64,000 nucleotides of DNA from Cymbomonas tetramitiformis (taxonomy: Eukaryota; Chlorophyta; Pyramimonadophyceae; Pyramimonadales; Pyramimonadaceae), in NCBI GenBank assembly GCA_001247695.2, contig LGRX02035196.1, positions 1 to 64,000 on the forward strand, read 5' to 3'. Within the stretch, counting starts at the first letter, position 1. Every line of letters starts with the position of its first letter. Below the pieces are notes generated by a model. That model searched no databases. It saw nothing but the letters and a program-made list of their open reading frames with translations, and was not told where the DNA came from. The translations under genes were made by a program, and so were the position numbers. Shown one piece after another: positions 18,901 to 64,000 of this stretch.

Positions 18901-21900
18901 GATGTGCGAATCCTCGGGCTTGTAGGCGTTGCGCGGAGTGAAGCCACGACATCCATCGCCAAGCCCGCTTGCTATGTGTCGCGGTGGTGCGCGGAGCGCC
19001 TGGGAGTCCCGAGCCGTCAGGGTGGGACCCCTGTCCAACACAGTGGCCGCAGCCAGGGAGTGCGCGCCGCCGCGGATCTGCTGTGGTAAAAGGGCCATGG
19101 CGACTCGAGGTTGTGGAGAGGAATTTGCACTCTCATTTCCTGCTGTGGCTATACTTTGGGATCGGCGATGCGCTCCTTCTGATGATTTGCTGCACCGATG
19201 AAGGCTGCTGACCGGGTTGCATCGGGTTGGACTGCAGCACTTAGCCGCCGCCGACGGCATACTGATGTCAGTGTCATATCTCTTGGGCATTGCGGCCAAT
19301 CCCAAGTGCCGTGACCGGTGGGGCAACACCCCGCTTGTGGACGCTCTGCGCGGGGACGCCTTCTACTGCATCTACTGCGCCAAGTTGATTGAGGTGCAGT
19401 TGCCCCATCCGAGCCCCCTCACGTAGTTTGACGCTCCGCGAATGGAGTTCCTCCGCCTTTAGCTCTCCCTGTTTGAAGCTCACCTGCCTGCTGGCTGTTT
19501 TGGAATTCTATACAGGGTAATTTGCAAAAGCGAGCGTAAACTTTCATTCTCAAAAGATATATCAGTTCGCAGCTCGAAACGCCACGAACGTTAGCGCCCA
19601 ATCCTTACTGATTGGGCAGTCTAAGCGAAAGTTCACTAATTAGAGTATGAGGTGTCACTGTCGAGTTCATAACGACTGCAGTGACACGTCTGCGATGGGC
19701 CGGTGAACTATTACACACTGTGTCTTGCCGATGGTCATCATATGATCCAACGACCACGATTAGTTCAGCAGATCTACAGATCTAGATCTAAGGGTTTCAT
19801 AGGGTTTCTTCAGGGTTCCTTCAGGGTTTGAGCATCCTGACTTCTGTGCAAGGCCTAGACAGCCATGCTTTACATCAAACTGATCAGCAGACACTGCAGA
19901 TTCCAATACCCCTTCTAAAGGCTGACTGTCTAGTTGTCCTACTGCCAGTTCTTGGGAATGGTGCCCCTTCAGTCAGCAATGCCCAGTTCTTGGGATGGCG
20001 CCCCTCCAGCTCCAGTTTATGGGGATGGTGCCCCCTTCAGTCTTCAGTTCCAGTGATATGGGGATGGTGCCCCTTCAGCTCCAGTTTATGGGGATGGTGC
20101 CCCCTTCAGTCTTCATTGGTCTCCACGAGGCAGGTTCATGACACCCAGTCGCTCTCTGTGTACACGAAATATAGGGAGTGCCAGAGGTTTGGTCATGATG
20201 TCAGAGGTGTTATCATCAGTCCCAGTGTACAGCGCCTCTGTGTCCTTGGCCTTGACCAGCTCCCTGATGTACATGTTCCTCACTTCAATGTGCTTGGACC
20301 GGGAGTTGTTCACGTAGTCAGTGGCCAGGTGGATAGCTCCCTGGTTGTCACAGTACATAGGCACTGGTCTGCATATGTCCACCAGTGAGTCCAGCACGTT
20401 GAGGACATACTTCACCTCCCGAGCTCCCTCTGACATGGCTATGATCTCGGCCTCAGTAGTGGACAGGGACACACACTTCTGGATCATAGACGAGAAAATA
20501 ACCAGACTCCCACAGAGGAAGACAGCGATACCAGAGGTACTTCTTCTGGTTACTTTGCACCCTGCATAATCAGAATCGGTGTAGATGGAGAGAGGCAAAG
20601 GTCTGCTTGGTCCAGTGCCACCCCCCCCAGGCACTGAAACAGTGCGCAGCACCAGCTCGTACTCCCTGGTGCCCTTCAGATATCTCACCACCTGCTTCAG
20701 GGCCACAAAGTGCTCTGGACCATATGTGGCGCAGAACCTTGACAGGACTGATACTGCTGCCATAATGTCAGGCCTACTGCAGCGAGCCACCCACTGCAGC
20801 TGCCCCAGAAGAGCTCGGTAAGGCATGGATCCTTTACCATCAGCAGGAGCCAGCTGAGTGCCAGGTGACATCGGCAAACTTGCTGGCTTGGCATCATCCA
20901 GGCCATAAGTGCTGATGATCTGGGAGATATAACCAGACTGAGATAAGTATGCTGTATCACTTCCCCAGCGCACCCCGATACCCATGACCAAGTCCAGCAC
21001 CCCAAGATCTTTGCACGCATACTGTGCGTGGAAAGAGGCCACAAAGTTGTCATACCAAGACTTGTCATTGGTGGCCACCAGGTAGTCATCCACGTAGGCC
21101 AGAATGATGACCTGGAGAGTGGTGTCCCGGATGAAATACAGGCAGGGCTCCACGTCACTCCTCTGCATCCTGGAGTCATATCCCATGATGAACGCATCGG
21201 AGGTGTCAAACCACTCTTTGCCAGCCTGCTTAAGCCCATACACTGCCTTCAGCAGTTTGGCACACCTGTGCCCCCCATAGACCAGCCCTCGGGGAAGACG
21301 GACATACAGGTCCTCCTCGAGCACTGAGTTCAAAAAGGCAGTGTCAACATCCATGTGGTAGACCACAAGTCCAAGGTTCAGAGCCAGGGTGATGATGATC
21401 CTGACTGATGACAGCTGTGTACATGGTGCAAAGGTGTCATAGTAGTCCACCCCATACTCCTGTTTATTGCCCCGCACACATATCCGGCTCTTCCTCTTCA
21501 GGAGTTGCCTGTTCTTGTCCAGCTTGACCTTGAGCACCAGTGACATTTCCAGTAACTTTACCCCAGCTGGTATGTCCTCCTCGTCCATCATCAGTAAGGC
21601 CTTCTTGATCTGTACCAGTGCTTCCTGTTCATCTTGAATAGAGTTGAGCCGCTCAGTACAGTCAGGTGAACTCAGGACCTGTGAGTGACTTTTTGGCTCA
21701 GTAACTCCCTCAGGCAGCAGAGAGCTCTGCACAGTGGGTGTCTCTGCAGCCTGAACACCCAGGCATGTGTGTGTGGGTGGAAATCGCACATCTCCAGCAG
21801 GTAGGTCCATGATGGTGAAGTTGGTGAGGAGGACCACACAGTAAGGCTGAGCATGAGGTGCAATAGCGCGTCCACAAATCATGGCCTCCTCAGAGTCCCC

Positions 21901-24900
21901 CTTCCCAGTGACAGCACGTACCTCAGTGAACAGTGGATAGTGAGCATTGACACTCCCATATGAGGGGCAATCCCTCAATAGTGACAGGCGATCACTGCCT
22001 GGCTTGAGATATGAGCTCAAACTCACCCAGCACACATCATCAGAGGTTTCCACCTTCACCACAGCCACAATCTCATCACTATCTTCAGGTAAGTACACAC
22101 CCTGCTCCAATACAGCAGTCTCCAATAGTGCAGGCGGTGGATCTTTGTAGGGCGCATCCAGAGTGGTGACCATGAAGTTGGTCTTGAGAGGGGTCACCGC
22201 AGAAGGATCCCATGTGGTCACCACCTTGCCCAGCTTGTCCAGCCTCTCCGAGAAGGTGACCATACCAGAGTTGACCACCTTCCCAGACTCATGATCATAT
22301 AGCAGATAGGCAGATGACACCTCAGAATGTTCCACATATCTGAGTTCACGAGCCCGGTTGCTGAGCTTATGTTCACGGATCGTGGGGTCAATAAAGGGGT
22401 AGGCCATGCATCCAAATACTCGTAGCTGGGACAGGTCCGCATGCTTCTTCCTGATGAGGTAGTAAGCCGAAGTCCACCCCAGAGATTCTCGGAATACACG
22501 GTTAAGGATGTATACCGCATGGCGGGTGGCCAGGGGCCACATGTCCACACCAAATCCAGAAGTCAATAGAAGGGCTCTGGCCATAGCTTGTACATCTCGG
22601 TGTGACCTCTCTACCCTTGCCTGGTTCTCATGCAGGTATGGGGAGCCATGCCTTTGCTCAATACCATGCTCCTCACAAAAAGCTGCAGTTTGCCCAGCAA
22701 TCATGGTACTGTCACCATCAGTGTGGAGCACCATGTGGTACTCGCTGGACAGGTTCATGGTGCTTCTCAGGCGCTTCACCTCCTGCAGGTATAGCTGGAA
22801 AGCCTTGAGATAGTCAGACTTGAGCTTGAGAAAGAATATGCATATCCAGGTAGTGCAGTCATCGACAAACAGCACGAACCATCTGTACCCCCCAGCACTG
22901 GTCCTGAATGGTCCACATGTGTCTGACCATACAAGATTCCCCAGTTCCTTGGATAGCTCTCTCCCAGTGGGTTTCGCAGAGGGCCTTATGGCCTTGGTCA
23001 ACCTACAGGCAATGCACCTCTCGGGGCTGCACTGGGCTGCCAGAGTACTGCGACTCACTGATGCTCATAGGAATATTTTGAGCAAACATGTGATCAACAG
23101 ACTTGTCACCGATGTGACCCAGCCTCACATGTTGTAGCAGCTTGATGTCAAGCTGCTCTGTAGTGTGCGAGTCCTTGAACAAAACCACCACTGGCCACTT
23201 GGTGTCCTCAATCCACACACGATCTTCTCCACAGGGTTCCAGATTGGCCACGTTGTAGCATGACTCCCTCGGTGCAGAGAAGATCTTAGCACCAGCAGGG
23301 TATTCATGAATAATATCAAAGCGAGAGACCAAACTCCACCAGCTCGCTGTGACCCATTTAGGCAATATACACATAAATTTGGTGTTGGAAGGGTCTCTGT
23401 CGAAGTCAGTGAGGGCCTTCTGGAGACACTGTAGGATGATGTCATGGTCGAATGGCGGGTTCTCATAGCAATGCCTGCCAGCCCAATCCTTACCAAAACA
23501 TGTGTCAGTAATGGTACAGTAGTCATCCAGGATGTGGTTGTCATCAGAGGAAAATAATTCCAGGAGGAAAGGGCCATGAGTGGTGAAGTGAGGCTTGGTG
23601 TCCTCAAATTTCCAGTCAGAGCGGTCTCGTTGATCATCAGTATGTTTGGCAGCACAGGCTAGATGAGTGTCCAAAGTCTCATATGTGTCCTCATGCATAA
23701 TGTACTGGTTGCCAACTCTGGCAAAGGAGAATACCACCCCCCCTTTGGACACAGTTCTGGCCCCAAAGTCCACAAGAAAACCTGCATCCTCGAGCGCCAC
23801 CACAGACAAGAGGTTGAAGGGCTGTCCAGGTATGCAGTGTGTGCCAAGGAGCTGTAGCCCAACCATGCGCCCAGACTTTACATCCTTCTTGGCAAAGGTC
23901 ACCGAGCCACTGCCAGAGGAGCTCACAGACTGACTCTGCACCACACTGAAGGTCTCACAGGCTGCAGTGTCATAGTCCGCATTGAACACCCGGACAGAGT
24001 TGAAGATGTGTGCTTGGTGGCGCCACTGTCGATAACAGCACTCTTGTCCACAACAGACCGAGTGCCACTGCTGCCAGCACTCGCACCACATGCCACCTGA
24101 GCATGGCCAGCATCAGGGGCACAATATACACCAGATGCCCAAGTATCACAAGGCACCCAAGCACACTCACCACGTGGGTCAGAGCCCAAGTCCAAATCCT
24201 CGACGAGGTCATCATAGGCATCATCGTAGTGGCCCTCACAGTGGTCCTCATAATAGCCACTGGGGAGCAGAGCCACAGAACAGAAGCGGATCTTGCGAGG
24301 TGGAGAAAGCAGTCCAGAGGCCCAATCATCAGAGGGGCTGTAACCCACTCCTTCAACGGGCTGTCCAAGGCTCATGTACTCCTCCTCCTCGTCAGAGTGC
24401 CCAAGGTACATACCCTCCTCCTCGTCAGAGTCAGAGTCAGAGGCATCTTCCAGGTCTGGTAGAGAATCACCATCACTTGAGCCAGAGTCCGAACCTGAAA
24501 CAAGGCTGGCAACAGACCCAGCATCACTCTCAACTGGCTGCCCAAGGTGCATGCCCTCCTCGTCAGAGTGCCCAAGGTACATGTCCTCCTCCTCCTCGTC
24601 AGAGTCAGAGGCATCCTCCAGGTCTGGCATCGAGGCATCATCATCCGAGCCAGAATCCGTGTACTCAGGCCAGGCACTGGTGCCCCACCCCTCACCGAGG
24701 AATAGCATGCCTCCAAAGTCCTCCACTGCCTGTATCAAGGTCCTGGTGGCCCCCCCGAGCTCAGACGCCCAGCTATGCAGGTCTACCAGCGAGGTGCGCA
24801 CCATGACAGACTCCAGCTTCAGTAATATGTCCATGTCATCCGTGGCCTGCCTGATGACAAGGAGCTGGCAGAGGATCTTCTTGGCACTGACAGTGTGCTC

Positions 24901-27900
24901 AACACCACGAGGAAGAGTAGTACCCCTGTCAAGTATGTGGTGAGCACGAAGGAATATCTCCACCGACCCGGCCATCATGATAGAGTGCCACCGTTGCAAT
25001 CCAGGCTTGAACCATAACTGCCTCGGGGATATCTGGAAAGTGTCGCCCAAGTGCTGATCACGTCCATCATCCCACTGGGCCTGTGTCCTCTTCAGGCGAG
25101 CCTTGTCAGGGAACAAGGCAATGAGCACATCAATGTAGACCCACGAGTCATAAATAGGTACAACCTTGGTGCGGCGACGACGGCTGAGCACAGGAGAATG
25201 CTTGTTGGGAACGTAGCAGTGGTGCTTCTTCTTGGCCCTGCGAGGAGGGCGCCCCACTGAAGACAATTCCACACGAGGTGCACTCACAGTGCCCTCATTG
25301 TCCCCAGTGTACTCACCAGCAGTGTGGGATACAACAACCTCAGGCTCGCCCACCTCCGTCAGGACAGAGTAGTAATTGAATACCGGGAACACAGAGGACT
25401 GGGACTCCACAGGTACAGAGCCCCGACCAGATATCCAGGGCTTGCACGGGGCCGAACTGGAAGGCAGCGACCCGGAGATGTTGAGATTACCTGCCTCAGC
25501 TGGCCCTGAGCTCAGGGCAGATTGTGCACCGTCCGGTAATGATGACTCCACCAGTACGGAGCTCCGACACGTCGATAGCTGGCCCGAGGCCGGGCAAAGG
25601 GTCAGCGAGCCAGAGATGCTAGAATGACCAGATTCCAATAGTCCAGAGCCCAAAGAACTGGCATATATATCTTCACCGGTCTCGTCCAGACCAGGGTGCA
25701 AGTCAGATGGACCAGCCTCCCGAATGGCAAAAAGGGCCTCACCACTCTCTTCCAGTCCAGGATGAAGTTCAGATTGCCCAGCTGCAGCACCACGATGTTC
25801 ACCAGGCTTCGGTAAGCTACCATGCTTCCCATAGTCCGCCACCCTCTTGAGAATTGCCGCCTTGGTAGTCGGGGAAGCCTTCTTGAAGAACGCCCCCCCG
25901 CTTCTCGACGTTCTTGATGAAACAGTCCTTAGCAGGGTGCCCACGTCTGTGACAGACAGGGCACGGGACTTTGACAGCCAGTCGCTGCCGCTTCGCCTCC
26001 TCCTGCTTACGCCTGTCGTCAGCAATAGCACCAGCAGTCTCAGATTCAGTATCCAGCGCGTGGGCAGTTTGCGCCACAGCAGCACGCGGGGCGAGTATGG
26101 TGTCGTAGTGAGATGTGACTTGGTCCGACAGCACACTCGCGGTAGGCAGGGTCTCAGACATGAATTTGGCCTTGAGGAGCATATAGTCGGGGTGCAGCCG
26201 CACAATAGCCATGGCAGAAAATATGGTCTCAACCGTCTCCATACACAGAGGCTTGCCAGAAGGAGTAACGCGCGCGTTTGCGGAGTACTCGCGTACACGC
26301 CGAAGAGTCTCCTTGGACTCTAGAAACGTTGGAAGAGGAGGGGCAAGTCTCGAGAGTTGATTCGTTAGCGACAGCAGCTTATCCACTTGCGTGATGAAGT
26401 AGACGACGCTGGTGTTGCGTCGCAATTTGGATAGCTCAAGCCAGGCTCCGTGACCGTCAGAATGTTGTTCGTAGCTGCGAACGACAGCGTTCGCAGTGCC
26501 AGTGGTAACACAGCAGAGGAAGTCATAAAACAGCTGATTCGCTTCCTCAAGATAGGAGTCATCCCCCCTCACCATATGGAGCGGAGTAGATTCCGAGAGC
26601 AGTAGCGCAAGAGAAGGGTGGCGCAAAGAGGGCTTAATTTTCGCAAGCCACTCGTCCCAAATTCCTTCCTGGTCAGTTTCCTTGCCAGAAAAGTACGAGT
26701 CCGCGGAAAGTCCCTTAGTCATATCAGAAAGAATTGGTAAAGGACGTCGCCCACCAGCGGCGACGAATTGAGATGTTGGTCCACAGGGACAGTGGCGCGG
26801 GGAGCTGAGTGATTAAGGCTGCGAATATCGTAGAGCTGAGCACTCAAGCCTTTCACCATTTCCGTAAGCGCCGAGATTTGCTCCTGCTGACCACTCAGCG
26901 CAATATCTCGCAAAGACGACTCGCCAGGCTTCTCCTCATAAGCTGGCGCGCCACCAGGAGGTGACGGTGTCGTCGCTTGACATAGCTCTTACTCCCTTTG
27001 ACCATAATGAATTCTCTTACGCGCAGCGGAAAATTTGCGTGATAAACAAAACGGATCCTCACTTACAATGTAAGTGGGCCCATAACCTTTTGGAATTCTA
27101 TACAGGGTAATTTGCAAAAGCGAGCGTAAACTTTCATTCTCAAAAGATATATCAGTTCGCAGCTCGAAACGCCACGAACGTTAGCGCCCAATCATTACTG
27201 ATTGGGCAGTCTAAGCGAAAGTTCACTAATTAGAGTATGACGTGTCACTGTCGAGTTCATAACGACTGCAGTGACACGTCTGCGATGGGCCGGTGAACTA
27301 TTACACACTGTGTCTTGCCGATGGTCATCATATGATCCAACGGCCACGATTAGTTCAGCAGATCTACAGATCTAGATCTAAGGGTTTCATAGGGTTTCTT
27401 CAGGGTTCCTTCAGGGTTTGAGCATCCTGACTTCTGTGCAAGGCCTAGACAGTCATGCTTTACATCAAACTGATCAGCAGACACTGCAGATTCCAATAGG
27501 CTGCGCCGATTGGCCGGCTTCGCGGAGACAGACGATGCAAAGACGGTTGTGAGGGAGATGGTGGAAGGCTGTGGCAGGCTGCTGGAGGAGATCTGGGGCA
27601 GCTGGAGGGAACCAAGGAGGGCTATGTCCTGCGTACGAAGCTGGAGACGTTGCACATGGACGACGTGCGCCTGGCTATCGTGAAGATGCGGGAGAAAGGC
27701 GTGGGGGAGCATTCCGCAGACAAGGGTCCGGTTTCGTATGACGAAATCATGGTCCTGCCCGCTCGCGCACCTGCTGAGATTGCCTGCCTCCCCCCCCTAG
27801 CCCGCACACCTCTCTCCTGCCCGTCATTTCCACCCACCTCCATCCACCGCCCGAACCTACCAACCTGATTTGTTGTCATGTCATATGACATATGCCATGT

Positions 27901-53254: not shown

Positions 53255-54341
53255 CAGTCATCGTGTCAGTCTGTCGACATAGCATCTGAATCGAGAATGA
53301 CGAATCGGAATTAGAAATGAGATCGGATCGGGAATTGAACGTTGAGCCGAAGTGTGACATCGGCTCTCGAGTGGTTGACCCTGCAACCTGAGTGACGAGT
53401 GAATAAGTGGAGCACTTGAGAAGTGTTTAGCCTTCAGAACTCGGAACCGAATTATCGTTTGTACCTCAATCTGGCCCTGATCCAGTATATTATAAAATCC
53501 GAATTGTGTACCTTTGCACGTTCAATCAAAAACATATTTCCGAGCATCTGTCGTAGTGCCCCTGGCACATTTGGTATCTTGCGTTACTTTGAACGCCTCC
53601 GTTGCGTTCAACCACGGACCTGTTAAAACTTACGGGATACTGCAGGGGAGAGGCTGTACTTTTGGCTACCTTTGCGCAATTTCTACGTCAGAAAAACCAT
53701 TTTTTTTTGTAGAAGGACTCCTGTAAATACCTCCAAAAGTCACTAAAAAGCAGTATCCGGCTCCCTTAACACTGGGGGCTCAAAACGGCTTTTCGACCCA
53801 AGCATGCCTGACAAGATCTTAAAACCAAACTTCGTCTGAGGCCAGTTCCGACCGATTTCGAGCAGTAAGGTTGGATACTAGGGTCTATCATGGCCTCGTT
53901 CCAGGCATGCAACTAGTTACAGACCCCTAAAAGCAGCAAAAACAGCCAAAAACAGCAGTTTTAGCCAGTTTTCAGCCTACCCCAAAACCTTCCACAGTAG
54001 CCCCCACCACCAAAAACTCCTTCCTTAGACCCCATAGGACAGCCTAGAAACCCCTGATACCGCCCTCACGGCCATCAGCAGCGGGGAAAGCTCCTCCAAA
54101 CAGCGCTTTCAGCAGCTTCTGGACGTTTCTGGCAGCTCTTCAGCACCTTCTGGTATCCTCCAGCAGTACCCTGACTGGAGCATTTTGGGACCTACGGAGC
54201 ATAAATATCGTCTGGGACCTTACTGGACCCCTGTATTGGACCTGACACCCTTCCTTTCGCTGCTGCTTGACTCTTGCCCGCGCACCTAGGCACTCAAAAA
54301 TCGTGTCGCGGAGCCCTGGCCAAATTTTGAGTTCGCTGGTG
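53255..54341. other. Possible 5' LTR and leader of the Gypsy element
   Basis: No gene is seen. The stretch lies just upstream of the first element-like ORFs and has a TATA-like GCATAAATAT near 54200, so it may contain the 5' LTR. With no second LTR copy in the window and no clear primer-binding site, this is an inference from position only. Confidence 0.3.
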
Positions 54342-54509
54342 TATGGCAGTACCCCCAGATCCAGACAAATACAGAAGAGCGTGGTGGAAGCAAGGACCTA
54401 TTAAGTGGGTATTCCCTCCAGACCCTACCTACCCACCAGCAGGCGCTTTCTGGCAGAGCGGCCCTCCTTCCCCTTCTTCCTCTGACGACGAAGAGGAGAA
54501 CAGCGACTG
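54342..54509 (+). CDS. Small acidic-tailed ORF ahead of gag
   Basis: 55 codons, ATG to TGA: MAVPPDPDKYRRAWWKQG ... SSSDDEEENSD. The Trp/Pro-rich body resembles pieces at 54560-54751 and near 55020-55110, so it may be a module repeated within the element leader. Function unknown. Confidence 0.35.
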
Positions 54510-54544
54510 AACGCCTGGACAGAGTCACGCTGGCGATCCCACCA

Positions 54545-54751
54545 GCACACTACGACTACGTGTGGCACCACCAGGGGAACTACTTCTTCCTCTACCCTGC
54601 TGACCAAGATTTAACAATCTACCCCGCGCTCCCTGGTGCGTTTCCGATAGCTGTAATCGACGGCGTTCCCCCATCTCCACCCGGAAGCCCCGCGCCTTCT
54701 CCTCCTCCTTCGCCCCCAGAGAGTGACATCGACGAGGACGAGTCTGACTAA
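54545..54751 (+). CDS. Second small acidic-tailed ORF ahead of gag
   Basis: The frame reads HYDYVWHHQGNYFFLYPADQ and ends in a Pro-rich stretch and the acidic tail ESDIDEDESD before TAA. Same build as 54342-54509: an aromatic core, then Pro/Ser, then an acidic end. No ATG at the left edge of the homologous part, so it may be a fragment. Confidence 0.3.
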   Translation, partial: AHYDYVWHHQGNYFFLYPADQDLTIYPALPGAFPIAVIDGVPPSPPGSPAPSPPPSPPESDIDEDESD

Positions 54752-54873
54752 ATAAAAAGGCGAGCACTCACTACTTTTGCTCACCTGTGGCTATTGCCAC
54801 ACCCAGTCTGTGAACTCAACCAGCTCAGCAGTCAGAATGTCACAGCAGACATCAGAATCCTTTCCCAGCATGG

Positions 54874-56119
54874 GTGTCACGGCGCAGAGCCGCTTTCCAA
54901 CATAGGAGTCAATTCAGAGCCGCTACGCCCCCCATTATTTTCACCCTTCACCTTCCCATCCCCCACTGCATTCGCTTCCACTTTTCCCTTCCCTCTCCCG
55001 GGCACCACCATGCCCTATACCGCTGTACCACGCCCTTATACCCTACCCGATGGCACCCCTACGCAAGCTGTGTGGAATGGCTCCAGCTGGGTATTCCCCC
55101 AGACAGCGCCCATTGCTGGGGGAGTGTCCCCAGTGCCATTTACATTGGGGACCCATCACGCCCCATGGGTTCGTACCCCACGCCATATCAACAGCATCTG
55201 CAACAGCAGCAGCAGTGGCAGGCGTACCATCAACAGTGGCCACAGCAGCAACAGCCGCTGGAGCCGGTGCAGCAGCAGCTACAGCAGCATCAGTTCCAGC
55301 AGCAGCAGTTACAGCAGCAGCAGCTGCAGCCGCAACCGCAACAACAACTACAGCAGCCTCATCAGCTGATACCAGCTACCTCGGCGCCTCAAGACCCTGG
55401 TGCGGATCTCTCATCGCTGCAGCACTTCATCAACATCAGCGCCGCAGCCCTGCCAGACCCTCTGCAGGCACCCCCTGACAGCGGAGTTCAGCAGAGCGTA
55501 CTGGGCCCGCGGGACCCAGCTCTTGGTGCGCCACCTCCCCGCGGTGGCAGCAACCTCAGAGACCCGCCGGCGCCGGCGTTCCCGAAGAGTATCCTCGGGC
55601 CCTGCGACACATGGTAGGCACCTCCCAGGTCTAAGCCATGCACCTGATCACTCCGACCCCGACTCCGGCACGGACGTCAGCCGCACCAGCACGGGGTCCA
55701 GAGGCAGCCGAAGCACGCAGGCACGGGCTGAGCGCAGGCGGAGGGCCGCCCACAGGTCCGGTTCTGACTCGGACGCGAGCAGCCGGAGCGAGCACATTCG
55801 CAGGGAAGTCCTGGCGGCAGTACAGGCCCTGGACATCTCCGCGGTGCTCTCGAGAGGACTCGCCCTGCCTGGCGCGACGACATTCTGCAGGAGCCTCCCC
55901 TCCAGGCGACCCTCAGAGCAGCGCACAGGGGGCCCTGACGGCGGACCATCCACTCGAGGCGGACGCCGCTGACAGCGTAACCCCCCCAGTGTCTCAGATT
56001 GTCGCTGAAACCGCTCCCGCCGAACCTCCCACTCAGGGTCGGCCAAATCCCCTCAACATGATGGTGGCTCGCCGGCGGCAGTCGATGGAGACGGTAGTGC
56101 ACGGCGGTGGCAACCCTGA
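54874..56119 (+). pseudogene. Low-complexity 5' region of Gypsy gag, frameshifted
   Basis: Three overlapping frames alternate. The first is MPYTAVPRPYTLPDGTPTQ in one frame. Next comes a Gln-rich stretch (GCAGCAGCAGCAG runs, 55200-55360), then Arg/Ser-rich sequence (TSETRRRRRSRRVSSG, SGSDSDASSRSEHIR). The frame changes near 55170 and 55500 suggest accumulated indels. It probably was the N-terminal part of gag. Confidence 0.5.
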
Positions 56120-58273
56120 CTCGGAGCTCAGAGACCCCATTCAAGCGACTCGCCTCTAGGCCCCCCCAGTGATCCACCTCAAGACCCCCTTGACGACCCC
56201 GCGCAAGGACCAGAGCCCTCCTACCCTCAGTACCCAGAGGTTCGGGCTCTCTTCGTCACCCATGACGGTGGGTCATTGTGGGTACACCAGTCAGCGGGGG
56301 TGCGAGGCGCGGCAACCGTCTCCCTGCCATGGGATGAACGCCGTCGGGCTGGGGTGCAGGGCGACGCCATCCTGTTCAGGATCATGCACCTGCTGGGAGC
56401 TCCGCTGACTGCATATGCGCGCATGGGAGGCCGCCTACACCATGCACCCCTACCACTTACCAACCCTCGTGTGGAGACCTGGGTCCTCATGGTCGACCGC
56501 GAGGTCATGGATATGGCAATGGGGGACCCAGCCGCAGCCAATGTGCGGTCTACGAGCATGGGGCAGCCAGTGTGGGAGTGGATCCCTGCTACTGCGCGGG
56601 AGTCGGAGATGCAGAACTTCGACCAGGACGGGCTCGCCGCGTGGTCGGAAGTCAGCAACTCCGATTGGTACCGAAGCATGAGCGTGGTGGCCGCACAACC
56701 ATCCACTCCCCTGCCCTTCCATACACCTCTTCCACTCCCCGCTCCACCATCAGCCCCTGCATTACCGCCCACTTCGACTGCAGTCCCCACAAATCCCGCG
56801 CCTGCGCTCCCGCCCGCGCATGCCCCGGGACCACCACCTCCAGCCCGTTTCCCCCACTCCGCCGCCGCAAACCCCGTTCACTCTGCCGCTGCCGCAAACC
56901 CCGTTCACTCTGCCGCTGCTGCGAACCCCGTACTCTCTCCCAGCGCCACCCCCTTTGTACCAGGCATCGTCCGACTGCCGCAGGGCACTAATCTGCGAGC
57001 ATCCTCAGACGAGGTCCGCCTGGAGCACAAGACCAAGGAGATGGTGCTGAAGCTGGTCAAGAGTGTGACCAGATTCCCTCGCTCCGCGTCCGACACTAAG
57101 TCGGCCGACAAGGATGGCCTCCTGACGCAGTTGGAGCACTACTCCAACATGGTGCGGAAGATATTCCAAGAGGCCATCGTGATCGAGGCGCTGACCACTC
57201 CCAGCTGTACGCCATCTGTATCGGCGTACCAGGCGAGCGTGTCGAGCCTCCTTTGGAGCTTTAAGGAGCACACTCTTCAGGACCAGCAGAAGAAATTCTT
57301 GGAGCGTGCGGCGGGGACCTTCGGGTCTGACCAGGCTTGGCACCGGCGCTACGTAGAGCTGGACGTGTTCTTCAGCGATCTGGCGGTGTGTTCTCTAACA
57401 CAGGCCTACCTGGAGAATGCACACGGAGAGGCCATTGCACTGAGGCAGGCGACGAACGAGACCGCGGCGGAGTATTTTTCGCGGTTGGAGACCCGCATGG
57501 CCTCCGTCAACTTCCTGGCTGGCAGAGTCCCCAATTGCGTGGAGATGTCCAACCTGTCCATGCTCTCCACGTACCGCCGAGGGTTGAGGTATGCACCCAA
57601 GGTGATGCGGCGCCTGAGAGCCATCCACCTGGATGTCTCCAAGCCAGAGGAGTGGGAGAGGAAGGCCGTCAATGACGATATCCCAGGCACCCACAACGCC
57701 CTGTTGAAGATACGGGAGGTTGCTGAGGAGGTGGAGAATGACATTGACACGGAGGCGGCGCAGAGGCGCACTCAAGATCGTCCTCCCCGCACTGTCTCCT
57801 TCGCCAACCCCTCACCTCGCACCCCCTTCTTCAGGCGTACCCCTTCCTCGAACCGTCCAGCACTCGCCATGCTGGAGAATGGGCCCACCACCACCGCTGC
57901 CGCGGCAGTTACCCCATTGCCACCACCACCTGGTCTCCCCCGCCCTGACGCTCCGAAGGTCCGCCGGTGTTTCGCCTGCGGCTCCGCGGAGCACATCGTC
58001 CGTAACTGCACGGATGAGACCAAGCTCAAGGAGTGGAGGGCCAATGCACCTGCTCGATTGGCAAATTCTCCTGGGTTCGTGGCCGCCGTCGTCTGGGCCA
58101 TCGAGCAGCAGGAGGACATCTCCTCGGTGGATGGCGTTCCAGAGGAGTTCTCCGAGGAGGTCCTGGCACTTGCTACCTGTGAGGACGAGCAGAGCTACCA
58201 GACCCTGGCGGCCCTCGCTGGTATCGAGCTTGTGGAGGGTGACGGTCTTCCCCCGGTTGAGGACGATGAATGA
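56120..58273 (+). CDS. gag: Gypsy-like gag with zinc knuckle
   Basis: Open from the TGA at 56117-56119 to TGA at 58273. The first in-frame ATG is unclear, and translation from 56276 gives 665 residues. Pro/Ala-rich linker with repeated HSAAAANPV near residues 200-215. Helical capsid-like part at about 245-470 (KEMVLKLVKSVTRFPRSAS, QATNETAAEYFSRLETRMAS is typical of retrotransposon gag). CX2CX4HX4C knuckle at 565-578 (CFACGSAEHIVRNC). Acidic C-terminus. This is a structural protein that packages element RNA. The intact length suggests the element was active not long ago. Confidence 0.85.
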   Translation, partial: LGAQRPHSSDSPLGPPSDPPQDPLDDPAQGPEPSYPQYPEVRALFVTHDGGSLWVHQSAGVRGAATVSLPWDERRRAGVQGDAILFRIMHLLGAPLTAYARMGGRLHHAPLPLTNPRVETWVLMVDREVMDMAMGDPAAANVRSTSMGQPVWEWIPATARESEMQNFDQDGLAAWSEVSNSDWYRSMSVVAAQPSTPLPFHTPLPLPAPPSAPALPPTSTAVPTNPAPALPPAHAPGPPPPARFPHSAAANPVHSAAAANPVHSAAAANPVLSPSATPFVPGIVRLPQGTNLRASSDEVRLEHKTKEMVLKLVKSVTRFPRSASDTKSADKDGLLTQLEHYSNMVRKIFQEAIVIEALTTPSCTPSVSAYQASVSSLLWSFKEHTLQDQQKKFLERAAGTFGSDQAWHRRYVELDVFFSDLAVCSLTQAYLENAHGEAIALRQATNETAAEYFSRLETRMASVNFLAGRVPNCVEMSNLSMLSTYRRGLRYAPKVMRRLRAIHLDVSKPEEWERKAVNDDIPGTHNALLKIREVAEEVENDIDTEAAQRRTQDRPPRTVSFANPSPRTPFFRRTPSSNRPALAMLENGPTTTAAAAVTPLPPPPGLPRPDAPKVRRCFACGSAEHIVRNCTDETKLKEWRANAPARLANSPGFVAAVVWAIEQQEDISSVDGVPEEFSEEVLALATCEDEQSYQTLAALAGIELVEGDGLPPVEDDE

Positions 58274-58328
58274 CTGGCCGGCGACCAGTCCCCGACCCTG
58301 CCCTTCGGGGAAGTGAGGTCACACCCTG

Positions 58329-60653
58329 ATGATCAGACCCTCTCCGCCCTGGAGAAGCGGTCAGAGCCAGTGGAACCCCGACGCGCACGAGGACGCAGAG
58401 ACCCTTGCTTGGGGCCATCGACCTCATCCCCAGAACGTGGCCTTCACCTCTGGAACCCGCTTGCGACGCACCTACCGCTCAGCTGGTGCCCCATCGCTGC
58501 CGAGGGATGACCTGACCAGCCACCCCCTTACAGAGAGCGCCTCTTTCGACGAGCCATCACTACCTCTTGATGACGGCCCTGCTTACACACAGGCAAGGAT
58601 CGAGGGTCGGAGGGGGCGGCGAGTTCCCCGGCACAGACCCCCCATTATGGGCAGCAACCGTGGAGAGCCCCGCGATCTTCGCCCCCAACCACGTGCTGTC
58701 CTACCATTACCCAACTATCAGTCCAACCTTGCAGATCCGCGGAAGAGGCTGACTGCGTGGCACTGGAAGAGAGATCTGTATTCTCTCCCCCTCGAAGTCG
58801 CCATGCAAAAGGTTCGCAGAGCTCTGCGCAAATCCCCGGAGGCTGCCAAGGACCTGGTGGATAAGATGTGGGAGCGCACTCGTAGCCGCATACGCTCTGG
58901 GAGTCGATCGCCGAAGGAGCACGTGAACCGCGCCAACCAGCTGGCGGAGAGGGTACGCATTGCCCGTGAACCTCAAGATCGCAGAGAGGGCCATCAGCGC
59001 ATCGCACTGTGGCACCTCCTCTCACACGACGGTCACCAGCAGGTCCTCGAGTCCCCTAGCGCCAGCCCCTCCGACCTCTACGCGGCTTGGAGAGAGCTGT
59101 CGCCCGCCGAGCAGCTGGAGGCGATCGCCACTTCGAGCCCAGATTCCTTCCCCGGTAGCAGGCTGTGGGAAAAGGAGGGTGCACGAAGAGCAGCAGCGAG
59201 ATCCTCGACCTCTCTCTGCACCCTGGACACCGAAGTGGGCACGATACCCGGGACAGCGGGAGACGTGGGCTTACCTGGCGCCTGGTGCAGTCTACACGCA
59301 GTGCACCAGTACAAGATGAGGAAGCTGGGTCCCAGCCCCTTGGGAGCATCCCCTCCATCATCCTCACTGGTCGAGCCCACGACAGAGACGACATCCTCGC
59401 ACCATGAAAACGCGCCGGCTACCCCGGGAGGAAACCTTGAAGGTCCATCTGACTGCGTAGTGACAGAGGAAACCTCTACATCCAGCTCGCTCTGCTTCAC
59501 CCAACAGATGACCACCGTCAGAACGCACGAAGCAGATGAAGCGCCGCCCCGCCTCGACAGCCACCCCATCGCTGAAGACCCCGAGGTTATGGGAGAGGAG
59601 CCCTCAGTTGATTCGCTCTGCTACACCCAGCAGATGGCAGCAGCTGGGACCCCTGAGGCGAGAACTAATCATCAGAGCTCCCACCAACTCGCCCACAACT
59701 TTCCCACTGGCAGCCCTCAGCATGACGAGGATCCCCTCACCCATAGCAGTCTCACCAACAGTGTTGCTACCCATGTGAGCCCCACAGCAATCGGCACTAC
59801 CCACGTGAGCCCCACAGTAAGCGGCACTACTCATGTAAGCCCTACCACCAGCGGCACCACCCACGTGAGCCCTACCACCAGCGACACCACCCATGTGAGC
59901 CCTACCACCAGCGACACCACTCATGTCAGCCCCACTTCGAGCGAAAGCACCTCAGCGGGTACCCTGATGACGGCGAGTGTGGACAACCTCGTCAGCCACC
60001 CGACTGAAGATGTTGACTTGCTGGATGAGGAGTTTTACGCCGCGTGCAGGCAGACGTTGGAGGAATGCCGCGAGGCCTCGGACAACCTCCTCCCCAACCT
60101 TAAGTGCAAAAGCATACGCACGGATGGGGGAGTTCAGTGGAAGACCGACATTGAGGGTACCCTTGCAGCGGCACATGACGAAGAAGGACCGCTGCTGCTG
60201 GTGTTCTATGCAACCCTCAGAGGGCACACGGTTAAGGTGCTGATCGACTCGGGGGCCTCTGACAACTTCATCTCGGAGCAGAGCGCCAAGCGATGTGGCC
60301 TCACGACACGAGCTGACTCCGAGATGCGAGTCACCTTGGCGGATGGATCTGTGAAGATCACTGGCGCCACTGCGTACGCCAAGTTTAACACGCACACCAC
60401 CACGGGCACCTATACAGAGAACGCCCTTGCCCTTCGAATCCTACCACTGGGCATACAGGTGGATGTTATTCTTGGCGGAAGGTGGTTGCGCAGTCACTCT
60501 CCTGTTACTCTGGGCTATGAAGGGAATGGTTCCGTCTCCTTCCTCAGGAAGTCCCGCAGTGGTAAGATTGGAGATCGCGTCACCATCACAGGCTGTTCTC
60601 CTGGGAAAGCATCTGGAGACAAGTCTCCGAAGGGCACGGCCTGTGCGGGATGA
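58329..60653 (+). CDS. Gypsy-like ORF2 with retropepsin domain
   Basis: 774 codons from ATG at 58329. The N-terminal 600 residues are mostly disordered, with an Arg-rich helical part (YSLPLEVAMQKVRRALRKSP). A 10-residue repeat lies at about 480-540 (THVSPTTSGT type). The aspartic protease is at about 625-750 with the active site LIDSGASDNF (D640) and the flap-side motif DVILGGRWLRSHSPV, which matches Ty3/Gypsy retropepsins. A TGA at 60651-60653 separates it from the reverse transcriptase part, which continues in the same frame. This is therefore either a single broken gag-pol frame or a read-through site. Confidence 0.85.
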   Translation: MIRPSPPWRSGQSQWNPDAHEDAETLAWGHRPHPQNVAFTSGTRLRRTYRSAGAPSLPRDDLTSHPLTESASFDEPSLPLDDGPAYTQARIEGRRGRRVPRHRPPIMGSNRGEPRDLRPQPRAVLPLPNYQSNLADPRKRLTAWHWKRDLYSLPLEVAMQKVRRALRKSPEAAKDLVDKMWERTRSRIRSGSRSPKEHVNRANQLAERVRIAREPQDRREGHQRIALWHLLSHDGHQQVLESPSASPSDLYAAWRELSPAEQLEAIATSSPDSFPGSRLWEKEGARRAAARSSTSLCTLDTEVGTIPGTAGDVGLPGAWCSLHAVHQYKMRKLGPSPLGASPPSSSLVEPTTETTSSHHENAPATPGGNLEGPSDCVVTEETSTSSSLCFTQQMTTVRTHEADEAPPRLDSHPIAEDPEVMGEEPSVDSLCYTQQMAAAGTPEARTNHQSSHQLAHNFPTGSPQHDEDPLTHSSLTNSVATHVSPTAIGTTHVSPTVSGTTHVSPTTSGTTHVSPTTSDTTHVSPTTSDTTHVSPTSSESTSAGTLMTASVDNLVSHPTEDVDLLDEEFYAACRQTLEECREASDNLLPNLKCKSIRTDGGVQWKTDIEGTLAAAHDEEGPLLLVFYATLRGHTVKVLIDSGASDNFISEQSAKRCGLTTRADSEMRVTLADGSVKITGATAYAKFNTHTTTGTYTENALALRILPLGIQVDVILGGRWLRSHSPVTLGYEGNGSVSFLRKSRSGKIGDRVTITGCSPGKASGDKSPKGTACAG
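59766..59945 (+). repeat. 30-bp coding tandem repeat in the Gypsy ORF2
   Basis: Six to seven copies of a 30-bp unit (ACCCATGTGAGCCCTACCAC core) that keep frame and encode THVSPTTSGT-like decapeptides. Confidence 0.9.
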
Positions 60654-61333
60654 GTGGATGAGGTGTTCCTGACCCCCGCCCAGTTGAAGAAGCACCTGGT
60701 GTACGCGGAGACGCAGAAGCTGCGCGGCAATGACGACCCGGGGATACAACCCGCCTGGCTGATGATGGCCGAGAAGTCCCCCGATGATACTACTTCTGCT
60801 TTTGCAGCCACGGCTATCGACTCTGAGAACGCCGAACCCGCTGCGGATACTGAAGACGCAGAAGTGGGCCCTGAGTGGACCCTCAAGTTTCAGGACTTCT
60901 GGGGCGAGGAGTACAAGAAGGAGATGACGACTGCTCTACCGAACATTGATGGACTCAGACATGACCCCCAAGATGAGGCCAACATCAACCTGGACCCTGA
61001 GCTGAGCAAGAAAGGGCCGCCCTGCCAGCGCATCTACAAGAAGTCTGCAGAGGAACTCCGCCAACTTCGAGAACGCGTCGAGACACTGATGTCCAAGGGC
61101 TACATCCGACCCTCGTCCAGCCCTTATGCAGCTCCCTGCCTGATGGTCCCCAAACCAGGGAACCCCAAGGAGCTGCGACTGGTGATCGACTACCGGCTTC
61201 TCAACCGCCAGATAGTTAAGGACAAGTACCCTCTCCCAGACATCCAGATGATGTTCGACGAGATGCAGGGTGCGAAGTTCTTCTCTTCATTCGACGCGGT
61301 GGATGGCTTCTGACAAGTTCCGATGGCTCCAGG
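60654..61333 (+). pseudogene. Gypsy reverse transcriptase, N-terminal fragment
   Basis: In frame with the upstream ORF after a TGA. It encodes the linker and the first reverse-transcriptase motifs (SKGYIRPSSSPYAAPCLMVP, LRLVIDYRLLNRQ, FDAVDGF). The next codon is TGA where the family has Trp; sequence typical of the family (QVPMAP) follows in the same frame. At 61333 it meets the LTR of another element. The catalytic YxDD region, RNase H and integrase are absent from the window, so this copy cannot make an active enzyme. Confidence 0.88.
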
Positions 61334-62720
61334 TGTACCAGGCACACACTCCTGATAACTTACACATCTTTATCTCTTTATTTTTCTTTCTTTTCTTTTA
61401 TCTTCTTCCTTTTCTTTTTATATTTTCTGCTGTTTTTGGTGTGTAATATTAACTTCACAGTCTTATATTCCACTGTTTTATTTCATGACATACTCTGGCT
61501 TCTAGCCTAGAATTACAGTCACTTTTCTGATATAATGTCTGGTCTCAGACCTAATACATCTATATCCTTATATCAGTCTTGGCATACAGCCTAATCCTAA
61601 CATGTAAAACTTCCTTAATTCATTTCTCTTGATCAACACTAACTGAGGTCCACTTTCCAAGCTTCCCTTTCAACATGTTGCTCTCTAACAATCACTAGCA
61701 GGATTCCTGTATTGACATCTGCCATCGACCAATCATGTGCACATATATGCCTGATTCTGGTACTCCTCCACCAATCATCAGGCAGATCACGATATTGCCA
61801 TTGCAGATCTTTCTGGAATCCACCAGATCCTCAATATAATTATTGTCATTGCAGATCTTCTCCTGAAATCTGCCTTGCCATCAATTATTTCTTCATACAG
61901 CTGTGACCGGCATGTAACAAGGCCCTTGCAGCATGCAACCACCCGTCACCAGCATGCAACCTGGCAGGTGTAGCATGCAACCTGGCCTCTGTCGCATGCA
62001 ACCTGGCCTCTGTGGCATGCAACCAGACATCTGTAGCATGCAACCTGGCCTCCGTGGCATGCAGCCTGGCGTATGTAGCATGCAACCTGACATTTGTCGC
62101 ATGCAACCTGGCCTCTGTCGCACGCAACCTGGCCCCTGTGGCATGCAACCCGACATCTGTCGCATGCAACCTGGCCTCTGTCGCATGCAACCTGGCCTCT
62201 GTCGCATGCAACCCGACATCTGTAGCATGCAACCTGGCCTCTGTCGCATGCAACCTGGCCTCTGTGGCATGCAACCCGACATCTGTAGCATGCAACCTGG
62301 CCTCCGTGGCATGCAACCTGGCCTCTGTAGCATGCAACCTGACATCTGTAGCATGCAACCTGGCCTCCGTGCCATGCAACCGGGCCTCTGTAGCATGCAA
62401 CCCGACATCTGTAGCATGCAACCTGGCCTCCGTGGCATGCAACCTGGCCTCTGTAGCATGCAACCTGACATCTGTAGCATGCAACCTGGCCTCCGTGACA
62501 TGCAACCGGGCCTCTGTAGCATGCAACCTGACATCTGTAGCATGCAACCTGGCCTCCGTGGCATGCAACCGGGCATCTGTAGCATGCAACCAGGCATCTG
62601 TGGCATGCAACCAGGCATACGCAGCATGCAACCAGGCATCTGTATCATGCAACCACTCGTCGGCAGCATGCAACCAGATCTCTGTAGCATGCAACCCCGC
62701 TGCTCGTACCTCCCGGTACA
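61334..62720 (-). repeat. 3' LTR of the minus-strand chromovirus (1,387 bp)
   Basis: On the plus strand it starts TGTACCAGG and ends CCCGGTACA, which gives the TG...CA ends and a 6-bp inverted repeat (TGTACC/GGTACA) expected of an LTR. Its left border coincides with the end of homology of the plus-strand Gypsy reverse transcriptase. Its right border abuts a polypurine tract in the correct orientation for the minus-strand ORF. The second LTR lies outside the window, so the borders rest on these signals. The left 590 bp is AT-rich and the right 790 bp is a 21-bp satellite. Confidence 0.75.
61931..62697. repeat. 21-bp satellite with GCATGC core, about 36 copies
   Basis: The consensus is AGCATGCAACCTGGCCTCTGT, with variants alternating TGGCCTC and TGACATC/CGACATC. 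Period 21 keeps three frames open on both strands for about 800 bp, giving long 7-residue repeats that I do not regard as proteins. The array lies inside the LTR. Confidence 0.95.
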
Positions 62721-62734
62721 ACTCCTCCCCCCTC
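62721..62734 (-). promoter_or_regulatory. Polypurine tract of the chromovirus
   Basis: The minus strand reads GAGGGGGGAGGAGT directly before the LTR start TGTACC. It lies 38-51 bp after the stop of the methyltransferase ORF. Confidence 0.75.
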
Positions 62735-62771: not shown

Positions 62772-64000
62772 TCAGGTATCAAGCTCCCCGAATCGAAGAT
62801 GGTGGAAGAGATGACGCAGTAACGGAGCTGGTACGGGGTACACGGCGTGAGCATCTCGCGCCCCTGGTTGCTGTGAAGACGATGGTCCAAGCTGAGCAGT
62901 CTCAGGGTGCCCTCCGGTGGCCCATTTACATGCGCAAGGTGTCCGCGAGGTACACTCCAGTAATGGCGTTGGTGGAGGTGAGCTAGTCCAGATACATGTC
63001 GGCTTACGATATCGCTCTCCATACTTACAGTAGGTGCAAAAAAGAGGCTGTGGCAGTTTGCGAACCACCGACCGCAACCGCAGTGCATTCGGGTATCTTC
63101 CCTCAGGGTTTTCAAGAAACCAGTGCTTGGGCTTCAAGTACTCGATAGCATCCAGGGTGCATTTCACACTCTTGTCTGCTCCTTCCAGATCAGGAGGGCC
63201 TCCCGTAGTGCGCGCCTGACTGTACTGGGTGCATGGAGGGCTGGCCCAGATGACATCAAAGAATCCCGGTGGATACTGAGTGGGGTCCCAGTCCTCCATT
63301 GATGCGAGATGGTTAGGTTGCCAACGTGGGTCGTTGTCGAGCGTAACCACCGAGGCAGACGGGAAGCACTTGGCAAACTCCCTTTCCACCGATCCAGTCC
63401 CGCTGAACAACACCAAGATTCTCACTGGCCGGGTCTTCCGCTCTTCAAGGTCGGTGATCACCACTAGCTCTCCATTCCCCAAGGTTTCCACCCGCTCCCA
63501 CGGCAGACAGAAGTCTTCCGGTGGAGAATCCACTTCCGGAACGTCACATGGGTGTTCCATTAGCTGGGATAAGGTGACGCCAAGGTGGACGGGCTGTCGC
63601 TGTTGACGTTGCCGTCGGTCATGCTCAGTGGATTTCAGCATGTCCGCCTGCATGCCTAATCGTCGTGCCTCGAACTCCTTGAGCTGCTGATTTTCCCCGC
63701 CTCTGTCCATCTTGTCTCTGGAGCGCCACTGGTCATGAGCTGCCGAGTAGCCCGTCCAGCGTACCTTCCATTCCTCCACAGATTTACCCTTGACCATGCG
63801 TACACGATACGCCAGGATTTTGTCCACGTGAGCTTCCGCTTGCCCATCTACCATTACCGGGTCAGGTACGGGCAGTTGTGCTCGAGATGCAAACTCATCC
63901 TTGCCGGAGATGTACGGCTTCAGGCGGTGCTGCGCAAACACGTCGTGAATGCGCCAGTGCGGCGGTAGGGCCAACCGATATGCCACCGGTGCCCCGCGGT
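62772..64000 (-). CDS. Retrotransposon ORF: integrase end, chromodomain, C5-DNA methyltransferase
   Basis: Partial: open through the window edge, stop at 62772-62774. Residues are counted from 63986. 1-25 are the end of a Ty3/Gypsy integrase (YRLALPPHWRIHDVFAQHRL; upstream codons read GAPV). 51-93 form a chromodomain (VDKILAYRVRMVKG, WKVRWTGY, DQW). 188-340 and on form a C5-cytosine methyltransferase-like domain: motif I LVLFSGTGSVE, motif II TLDND (D217), motif IV SPPC with catalytic Cys at 252, motif VI FLENPEG (ENP where most have ENV). The C-terminus has YPVPAPLL. Integrase and chromodomain target insertion in chromoviruses. The methyltransferase would modify cytosines in DNA, perhaps the element's own copy. 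Retrotransposon-borne DNA methyltransferases have been reported in dinoflagellates and charophytes. Target specificity is unknown. Confidence 0.88.
   Translation of the reverse strand, partial: RGAPVAYRLALPPHWRIHDVFAQHRLKPYISGKDEFASRAQLPVPDPVMVDGQAEAHVDKILAYRVRMVKGKSVEEWKVRWTGYSAAHDQWRSRDKMDRGGENQQLKEFEARRLGMQADMLKSTEHDRRQRQQRQPVHLGVTLSQLMEHPCDVPEVDSPPEDFCLPWERVETLGNGELVVITDLEERKTRPVRILVLFSGTGSVEREFAKCFPSASVVTLDNDPRWQPNHLASMEDWDPTQYPPGFFDVIWASPPCTQYSQARTTGGPPDLEGADKSVKCTLDAIEYLKPKHWFLENPEGRYPNALRLRSVVRKLPQPLFCTYCKYGERYRKPTCIWTSSPPPTPLLECTSRTPCACKWATGGHPETAQLGPSSSQQPGARDAHAVYPVPAPLLRHLFHHLRFGELDT

Follow-up and report, generated by a model that had tools for sequence, protein, structure and literature searches.

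Can a retrotransposon carry, on a single polyprotein, both a reader of chromatin marks and the enzymes that write DNA methylation, and what would it gain by doing so? The question is raised by the far end of a 64,000-nucleotide stretch of the genome of the green alga Cymbomonas tetramitiformis (contig LGRX02035196.1, positions 1 to 64,000), referred to here as the window. A sequence-only reading, made without database searches, had described this feature as a chromovirus integrase tail and chromodomain fused to a C5-cytosine DNA methyltransferase. We find that the feature belongs to a young Ty3/Gypsy chromovirus present in many copies, of which it forms the 3′ end. The fusion was confirmed, and the element's Pol polyprotein is, with near certainty, composed of protease, reverse transcriptase (RT), RNase H, a Dam-type N6-adenine methyltransferase, integrase, chromodomain and C5-cytosine methyltransferase. 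The Dam domain and a second family of elements (family B) had been missed; Dam lies beyond the window and so was not visible to that reading.

The features of the window that bear on this conclusion are as follows:

62772..63998, minus strand: 3′ end of Pol, 408 residues, a single open reading frame that is open at its 5′ end at the window edge (stop codon 62772-62774)
63912..63992, minus strand: integrase C-terminal SH3 (GPY/F-type) module, residues 3-29 (Pfam SH3_Tf2-1, 3.7e-5, below cut-off)
63663..63830, minus strand: chromodomain, residues 57-112 (Pfam PF00385, 5.9e-7, 29.8 bits, cut-off 25.1)
62775..63425, minus strand: C5-cytosine methyltransferase domain, residues 192-408 (from motifs, profiles and predicted fold)
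63393-63407, minus strand: motif I of the C5 domain, FSGTG
63231-63242, minus strand: motif IV of the C5 domain, SPPC
63105-63113, minus strand: motif VI of the C5 domain, ENP
62721..62734, minus strand: polypurine tract, GAGGGGGGAGGAGT on the sense strand, directly beside the long terminal repeat (LTR)
61334..62720, minus strand: 3′ LTR of 1,387 bp, TGTACC...GGTACA, homologous to the LTR of a complete copy on another contig (C3710)

As had been claimed, one frame runs from the integrase tail through the chromodomain into a C5 domain with motifs I, IV and VI, and the enzyme lies inside the element rather than next to it, with the stop codon followed by the polypurine tract and then the LTR. 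On the window's contig (C25014), the frame extends beyond the window to 791 residues. Two profile searches had been proposed as a check, with divided results. The chromodomain profile exceeded its cut-off in the window copy, C3710, family B and a locus filed as bacterial (L167, below), and the CBX5/HP1 chromodomain matched that of the window at E 0.008. The DNA_methylase profile (PF00145) has a cut-off of 22 bits and reached 19.5 bits (7.2e-4) on the window frame. This cut-off was passed by P0127 and by relatives that share the architecture, such as P0123 (25.8 bits), and the weak score is in keeping with a C5 family that is compact and divergent and in which S67, P68, C70, E110 and N111 are invariant across a 62-sequence alignment. 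The SH3 module likewise exceeded its cut-off in C3710 (2.9e-7, 30.9 bits).

The genome searched comprised 851.7 Mb in 25,745 contigs. For the window's own family (family A), 102 copies were scored, including that of the window; they are the best-scoring of 9,839 first-look candidates and are thus biased towards intact copies. All 102, on 102 contigs, align across the full 408 residues at 98-100% identity, so that the fusion recurs in every scored copy. The frame is free of stops in 99 copies and carries a stop in three, and it exceeds 3,000 residues in five.

Extending the contig had been suggested as the route to the full gag-pol and the second LTR. This failed for the window copy, which is truncated or rearranged: its frame is broken near 65.0-65.15 kb of the contig and its homology to C3710 stops at 72684. 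The complete structure was obtained instead from C3710, a copy of 16.7 kb. Its LTRs (91458-92823 and 106848-108172) start with TGTACC and end with GGTACA, are 99.2% identical with no differences in 560 positions outside a tandem array, and are flanked by a 5-bp target-site duplication, GTCGA; the LTR identity and the duplication mark a recent transposition. A primer-binding site, TGGTATCAGA, which we take to be of the initiator-Met type, adjoins the 5′ LTR and a polypurine tract adjoins the 3′ LTR, so that this one copy holds the full set of Ty3/Gypsy terminal hallmarks. The gag frame of 1,252 residues has a weak zinc-knuckle match (0.035). The Pol frame of 3,110 residues, examined as two pieces (L024:3-2207 and L023:2878-9999), reads protease, RT, RNase H, Dam, H2C2, integrase core, SH3, chromodomain and C5 methyltransferase (RVT_1 1.1e-30; H2C2 3e-19; rve 8e-6, below cut-off). 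The Ty3/Gypsy order of protease, RT, RNase H and integrase is therefore present in C3710, and that from RT through integrase in family B.

The Dam domain between RNase H and integrase in C3710 is of phage type (PF05869 4.2e-12, 46.5 bits, cut-off 28.1; PHROG 111 1.7e-17) and carries the motif WCNPPY. The window's contig matches this stretch at 91%. Among 12 proteins in which the Dam pattern was found, 11 keep the catalytic NPP[YW].

The tandem array in the LTR is built of a 21-bp unit, GCATGCAACC, located by eye at about 61900-62700 in the window and with approximately 34 units in the C3710 LTR. The unit has the length of two helical turns and a palindromic core, and it recurs in the opposite sense inside gag and Pol (L023 2076-2799 and 6137-6968), where it encodes EHATRPA-like heptads. 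The idea that the GCATGC array is a target site was dropped as unproven: outside the arrays, neither CATG nor GCATGC shows a notable excess.

By its sequence, the C5 domain appears to be of phage or bacterial kind rather than Dnmt3. It is matched by PHROG 757 at 1.6e-16, and a search of PDB sequences with the C5 family profile returned no DNMT3 chain up to E 10, the best match being human DNMT2, the tRNA C38 methyltransferase (4.7e-7). An AlphaFold model (mean predicted local distance difference test score of 94) structurally matches M.HaeIII, DNMT3B, DNMT1 and M.HhaI, with the highest Z for DNMT3A/B (16.3, versus 14.8 for M.HhaI). Capture of a Dnmt3, as in the KnitGypsy element discussed below, is thus unsupported by sequence, while the fold would be compatible with it.

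Motifs I, IV (PPC) and VI (EN) are present in a class I fold, as judged from sequence and predicted structure, and the domain is probably catalytically active. When proteins of about 558-1,776 residues were searched for the C5 region, 32 hits were obtained; all three motifs are intact in each of the 15 relatives that cover at least 200 profile positions, the other 17 hits being partial. Selection was assessed on 26 loci (20 top-ranked and 6 long-frame picks, with C3710 in both), a choice of copies that itself lowers the ratio of non-synonymous to synonymous sites. In the C5 part, 6 of the variable sites are non-synonymous and 29 are synonymous, where neutrality would predict a ratio of 2.8 to 1; the corresponding counts are 3 and 18 for the integrase-tail and chromodomain part and 1 and 13 for the linker.

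The arrangement is not confined to family A. Family B, which includes the C. tetramitiformis protein CYMTET_12107 (P0008; matching a site in the searched genome with 100% identity across 321 residues), has at least 124 copies, scored out of 8,004 candidates, with frames of up to 2,759 residues and no stop in the 124 listed matches. The window's C5 domain shares 47% identity with that of P0008. One family B copy (C3347; L042) follows the family A order from RT through RNase H, Dam, H2C2, integrase and chromodomain to C5; downstream of it, inspection by eye shows a polypurine tract and what looks like the start of an LTR. A first C5 search found 959 proteins among 1,125 candidates, of which 120 were listed. 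The succession of Dam, integrase, chromodomain and C5 is repeated in Cymbomonas and metagenome proteins P0121, P0123 and P0132, the C5 domain of the last being recognized by the family profile and not by Pfam. The arrangement is of sufficient age to be shared by families with C5 domains that match at about 47% identity.

Other metagenome proteins place the C5 domain differently. P0141 is a Gypsy-type Pol with C5 before the protease and a C-terminal Tudor match (PTM_DIR17 1.1e-4, below cut-off), and P0142 is a partial relative. P0146 has C5 after Dam and before RT, P0147 is a Pol with C5 followed by RT, and P0148 has a protease-like sequence (by eye), Dam and C5. A locus filed under a Verrucomicrobiaceae metagenome-assembled genome (L167; NHEN01000032.1) encodes integrase, chromodomain and C5, the C5 domain being found by tblastn and by eye and falling below the Pfam threshold used; it is probably a binning error from a eukaryote. 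A stand-alone C5 relative of 243 residues was also seen (P0087; EukProt TSEL_043356, Tetraselmis by its prefix), with 23 member sequences, and is possibly another repetitive element.

For phylogeny, 234 C5 domains yielded 207 of full length, of which 154 were kept after removal of near-copies, and 46 rows were chosen from these. In the 46-row tree, the 13 sequences of chromodomain type fall together in a single clade (99/93, midpoint root), with P0019 and P0021 assigned to this group by eye, neither having a Pfam family at 0.01; sequences called stand-alone were so labeled from length and start codon, not gene context. Two other C5 arrangements branch apart from this clade. The tree needs three label changes and none of the bootstrap trees (0%) has one. 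Since a single origin is compatible with the approximately unbiased test (p 0.294), several independent captures are not claimed.

No close viral donor of the C5 domain was found in a close-query scan of IMG/VR. In alignment scans of that database, 80 of 590 confirmed loci were kept, followed by 5 and 39 loci, with identities of 26-40% among the matches listed; the 42 IMG/VR rows in the 154-row tree group apart from the retrotransposon-linked rows. Two IMG/VR contigs that were examined have phage-like neighbors such as endolysin and thymidylate synthase. The 64 C5 loci found in bacterial and archaeal genomes have identities of 24-35%, except for one at 43%, which is the retrotransposon in L167.

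What might two writers and a reader do for such an element? We propose that both methyltransferases would stay within the particle and the pre-integration complex, which the chromodomain would dock on marked chromatin. The C5 enzyme, plus Dam where it is intact, would methylate the new cDNA copy, the insertion site or both. New copies would thus arrive already bearing the host's silent mark, which would limit damage and hide the copies. Plant chromomethylases, which likewise couple a chromodomain to C5 methylation, offer an analogy, and the SymbioDIRS-Dnmt3 enzymes, which methylate CG de novo in yeast (PMC5890265), a precedent. Taken as a whole, a two-writer, one-reader chromovirus with proposed self-marking is the explanation that we favor by a modest degree. 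That self-marking at or before integration is the selected function is a more tentative proposition, with a little under an even chance of being right. It is rather unlikely, though conceivable, that these elements form a widespread algal chromovirus clade with phage-derived marking of two bases, in which each copy is delivered with its own N6-methyladenine and 5-methylcytosine and the copies, numbering hundreds to thousands, could determine a large part of the host methylome.

Several observations weigh against self-marking. In HP1 chromodomains, aromatic residues form the cage. The window chromodomain keeps two of the three, the tryptophan and the aromatic three residues on, which is a point in favor, but the first is replaced, which makes binding of methylated H3K9 uncertain. 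In coding DNA, a footprint of CpG self-methylation was looked for through CpG observed/expected ratios and differences among copies, and was not seen: the ratio, at 0.80-0.87, does not fall under the 0.75 of the window background, and only 22 of 224 differences among copies are CpG transitions, so there is no broad deamination footprint. The Dam motif of P0132 is damaged (WCSPPS). The Dnmt3 of KnitGypsy was inconclusive in the published yeast assay (PMC5890265). Finally, not every copy has the domain at the expected place. For 65 of the 142 integrase-core hits that were scored, a methyltransferase hit is listed on the contig, and 12 of the other 77 were examined. The methyltransferase motif region stands at the expected offset in eight and unrelated sequence in four; among the eight, one was seen for only 50 bases and four are damaged (one by a stop and a frameshift, three by frameshifts). 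Copies lacking the methyltransferase had been named as grounds for rejecting the fusion, and on this point the outcome is mixed: most of these selected copies keep the domain, and some family A copies are without it at that place, by loss, interruption or shift.

The LTR differs from coding DNA in its CpG content:

61334-61893 in the window (minus-strand LTR), and the LTRs in L001-L020, L023, L024 and L028: CpG-poor non-repeat part of the family A LTR, by CpG count

This 560-bp part has 2-4 CpGs (observed/expected 0.12-0.25) in 14 of the 15 copies whose LTR end was found by script, none having been found in 6 of the 20 top loci. The exception, the LTR of C25734, has 7 CpGs and a ratio of 0.42. 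The ratio of the window LTR is 0.124, and none of 382 windows taken from positions 1-54000 is at or below this value. Family B is unlike family A, with 0.58-0.64 before the LTR and 0.89 at the LTR start. The CpG-poor LTR of family A could reflect methylation decay or selection against methylatable promoters.

The main rival to self-marking, which we regard as unlikely, is that both methyltransferases mark the element cDNA to spare it from nucleases of the host, of prey bacteria or of co-infecting viruses. Protection from nucleases is the usual role of such methyltransferases in phages. Both domains are of phage type (PHROG 757 for C5; PHROG 111 and, below cut-off, TIGR01712 for Dam), their relatives occur in phage genomes, and two base specificities together would resemble anti-restriction. 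According to published titles and abstracts, moreover, Cymbomonas eats bacteria. No nuclease of matching specificity is known here, however, and protection leaves the fusion beside a chromodomain unexplained.

Considerably less probable is a weapon against competitors, by which the enzymes would use methylation to silence DNA viruses that invade the cell, or rival elements, and so benefit the host. Such a role has been suggested for retrotransposon methylases (PMC6338049), and many endogenous viral elements are present in the Cymbomonas genome (PMC10675990). There is no evidence of targeting, and such a role would demand action in trans from a domain that is joined to the integrase of its own element. 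A slightly poorer candidate is RNA methylation, in which the C5 domain would act in the manner of DNMT2 on the tRNA primer or the element's genomic RNA. The DNMT2 match that speaks for it spans only the N-terminal S-adenosylmethionine half, whereas the fold best fits the DNA enzymes DNMT3A/B and M.HhaI; the paired Dam, moreover, has known relatives that act on DNA. There is only a slim chance that the domains are passengers, captured once and kept as structural parts of the integrase without catalysis: the damaged Dam of P0132 and the four integrase copies without the methyltransferase at the expected place would agree with this, but catalytic motifs are intact in all 15 full-length relatives, across families about 47% identical. 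An assembly chimera or chance frame, in favor of which the truncated or rearranged 5′ part of the window copy and its broken frame could be cited, has practically no standing and is ruled out for the fusion because the same junction occurs in 102 copies on 102 contigs, in family B and in public and metagenome proteins.

The surroundings of the window copy record its insertion into a relative:

54290-61333, plus strand: related Gypsy element (gag-like frame, protease and RT), cut at 61334 by the LTR of the element reported here

The RT of this plus-strand element is 84% identical to that of family A and has an in-frame stop at 61311-61313; the LTR begins within the RT coding sequence, approximately 20 bases past that stop, so the window element inserted into it. 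Its RT and integrase continuation was not found within 65001-79876 of the contig. A few kb past the 5′ end of the truncated element lies a protein-kinase frame (contig C25014 76086-77309, minus strand; L035; PF00069 2.6e-18).

The window also holds a complete-looking Ty1/Copia element (19498-27387, minus strand; RVT_2 3.4e-45) with 300-bp repeats at 19498-19797 and 27088-27387 that are 99% identical. It too encodes a Dam-type adenine methyltransferase (23006-24112; PF05869 1.2e-8, ENPPF), lying between the integrase and a DSGA stretch that looks protease-like by eye, with no PHROG match at 1e-5. A methyltransferase is thus found in a second retrotransposon superfamily of the window.

These findings suggest that phage-type C5 methyltransferases, and not captured host DNMTs alone, live in retrotransposon polyproteins, and they show that cytosine and adenine methyltransferase domains can travel together beside a chromatin reader. 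C. tetramitiformis has been sequenced and is maintained as a living strain, and the copies are young and abundant, which would allow long-read methylation calling to test directly the long-standing question of whether transposons can write their own epigenetic state.

How does the element compare with known systems? The sequence-only reading had pointed to captured methyltransferases in dinoflagellate and charophyte retrotransposons, and this is borne out by KnitGypsy-Dnmt3, SymbioDIRS and SymbioLINE: de Mendoza et al. (2018; PMC5890265) described C5 enzymes in LINE, DIRS and Gypsy elements, among them KnitGypsy-Dnmt3 of Klebsormidium nitens. Like the Cymbomonas element, KnitGypsy-Dnmt3 is an LTR Gypsy element of a green-lineage alga with a C5 methyltransferase within the Pol frame under purifying selection (PMC5890265). 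Its enzyme is a Dnmt3 and its repeats are DIRS-like, whereas the Cymbomonas element has ordinary LTRs, a C5 domain of apparently phage or bacterial kind placed C-terminal to a chromodomain, and Dam in addition; neither a chromodomain nor Dam is mentioned for KnitGypsy in the accessible portions of PMC5890265. SymbioDIRS-Dnmt3 and SymbioLINE-Dnmt similarly represent C5 methyltransferases carried by retrotransposons in their hundreds within an algal genome, but these are DIRS and LINE elements with a Dnmt3 or an orphan C5 lineage (PMC5890265). Dam-like adenine methyltransferases also occur in the Pol of DIRS elements, which are tyrosine-recombinase elements for which a C5 domain alongside is not reported in the available text (PMC5890265, PMC6338049). 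In general terms, PMC6338049 notes Ty3/Gypsy and DIRS elements of green algae encoding DAM and DCM and speculates on antiviral roles.

In the same host, Burns et al. (2015; PMC5741210) reported regions of chromodomain, RNase H and cytosine DNA methyltransferase on three Cymbomonas scaffolds with more than 10,000x coverage, which are very likely pieces of these elements. Gyaltshen et al. (2023; PMC10675990) reported Chlamyvir-like chromoviruses in C. tetramitiformis, the word methyltransferase being absent from the main text. The fusion, Dam and the element structure are described in neither, as far as their available text extends. The Tudor match of P0141 may be set beside an Ectocarpus report of a self-described first Tudor-bearing transposon (PMC12477816).

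Outside retrotransposons, diatom DNMT4 has a chromodomain N-terminal to a C5 methyltransferase on one protein in nine diatom proteins, which are described as DNMT4-family enzymes and, in the available text, not as parts of a retrotransposon Pol (PMC9998398). The plant chromomethylases (CMT3/ZMET2) and the fungal DIM2-HP1 pair are analogous in working, coupling chromodomain reading to C5 writing, and are host enzymes rather than retrotransposons. In chromomethylases the chromodomain lies inside the methyltransferase domain and is preceded by a BAH domain, an order that the Cymbomonas protein does not share, its chromodomain (residues 57-112) being wholly N-terminal of the C5 domain (residues 192-408). 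No such arrangement was found in the accessible parts of PMC12344493 and PMC12542154, nor did the openly licensed literature, as far as it was available, yield a Pol reported to combine chromodomain, Dam and C5. Methyltransferase-bearing retrotransposons are therefore already known, and it is the union of chromodomain, Dam and C5 methyltransferase on one Pol that, within that literature, is apparently new.
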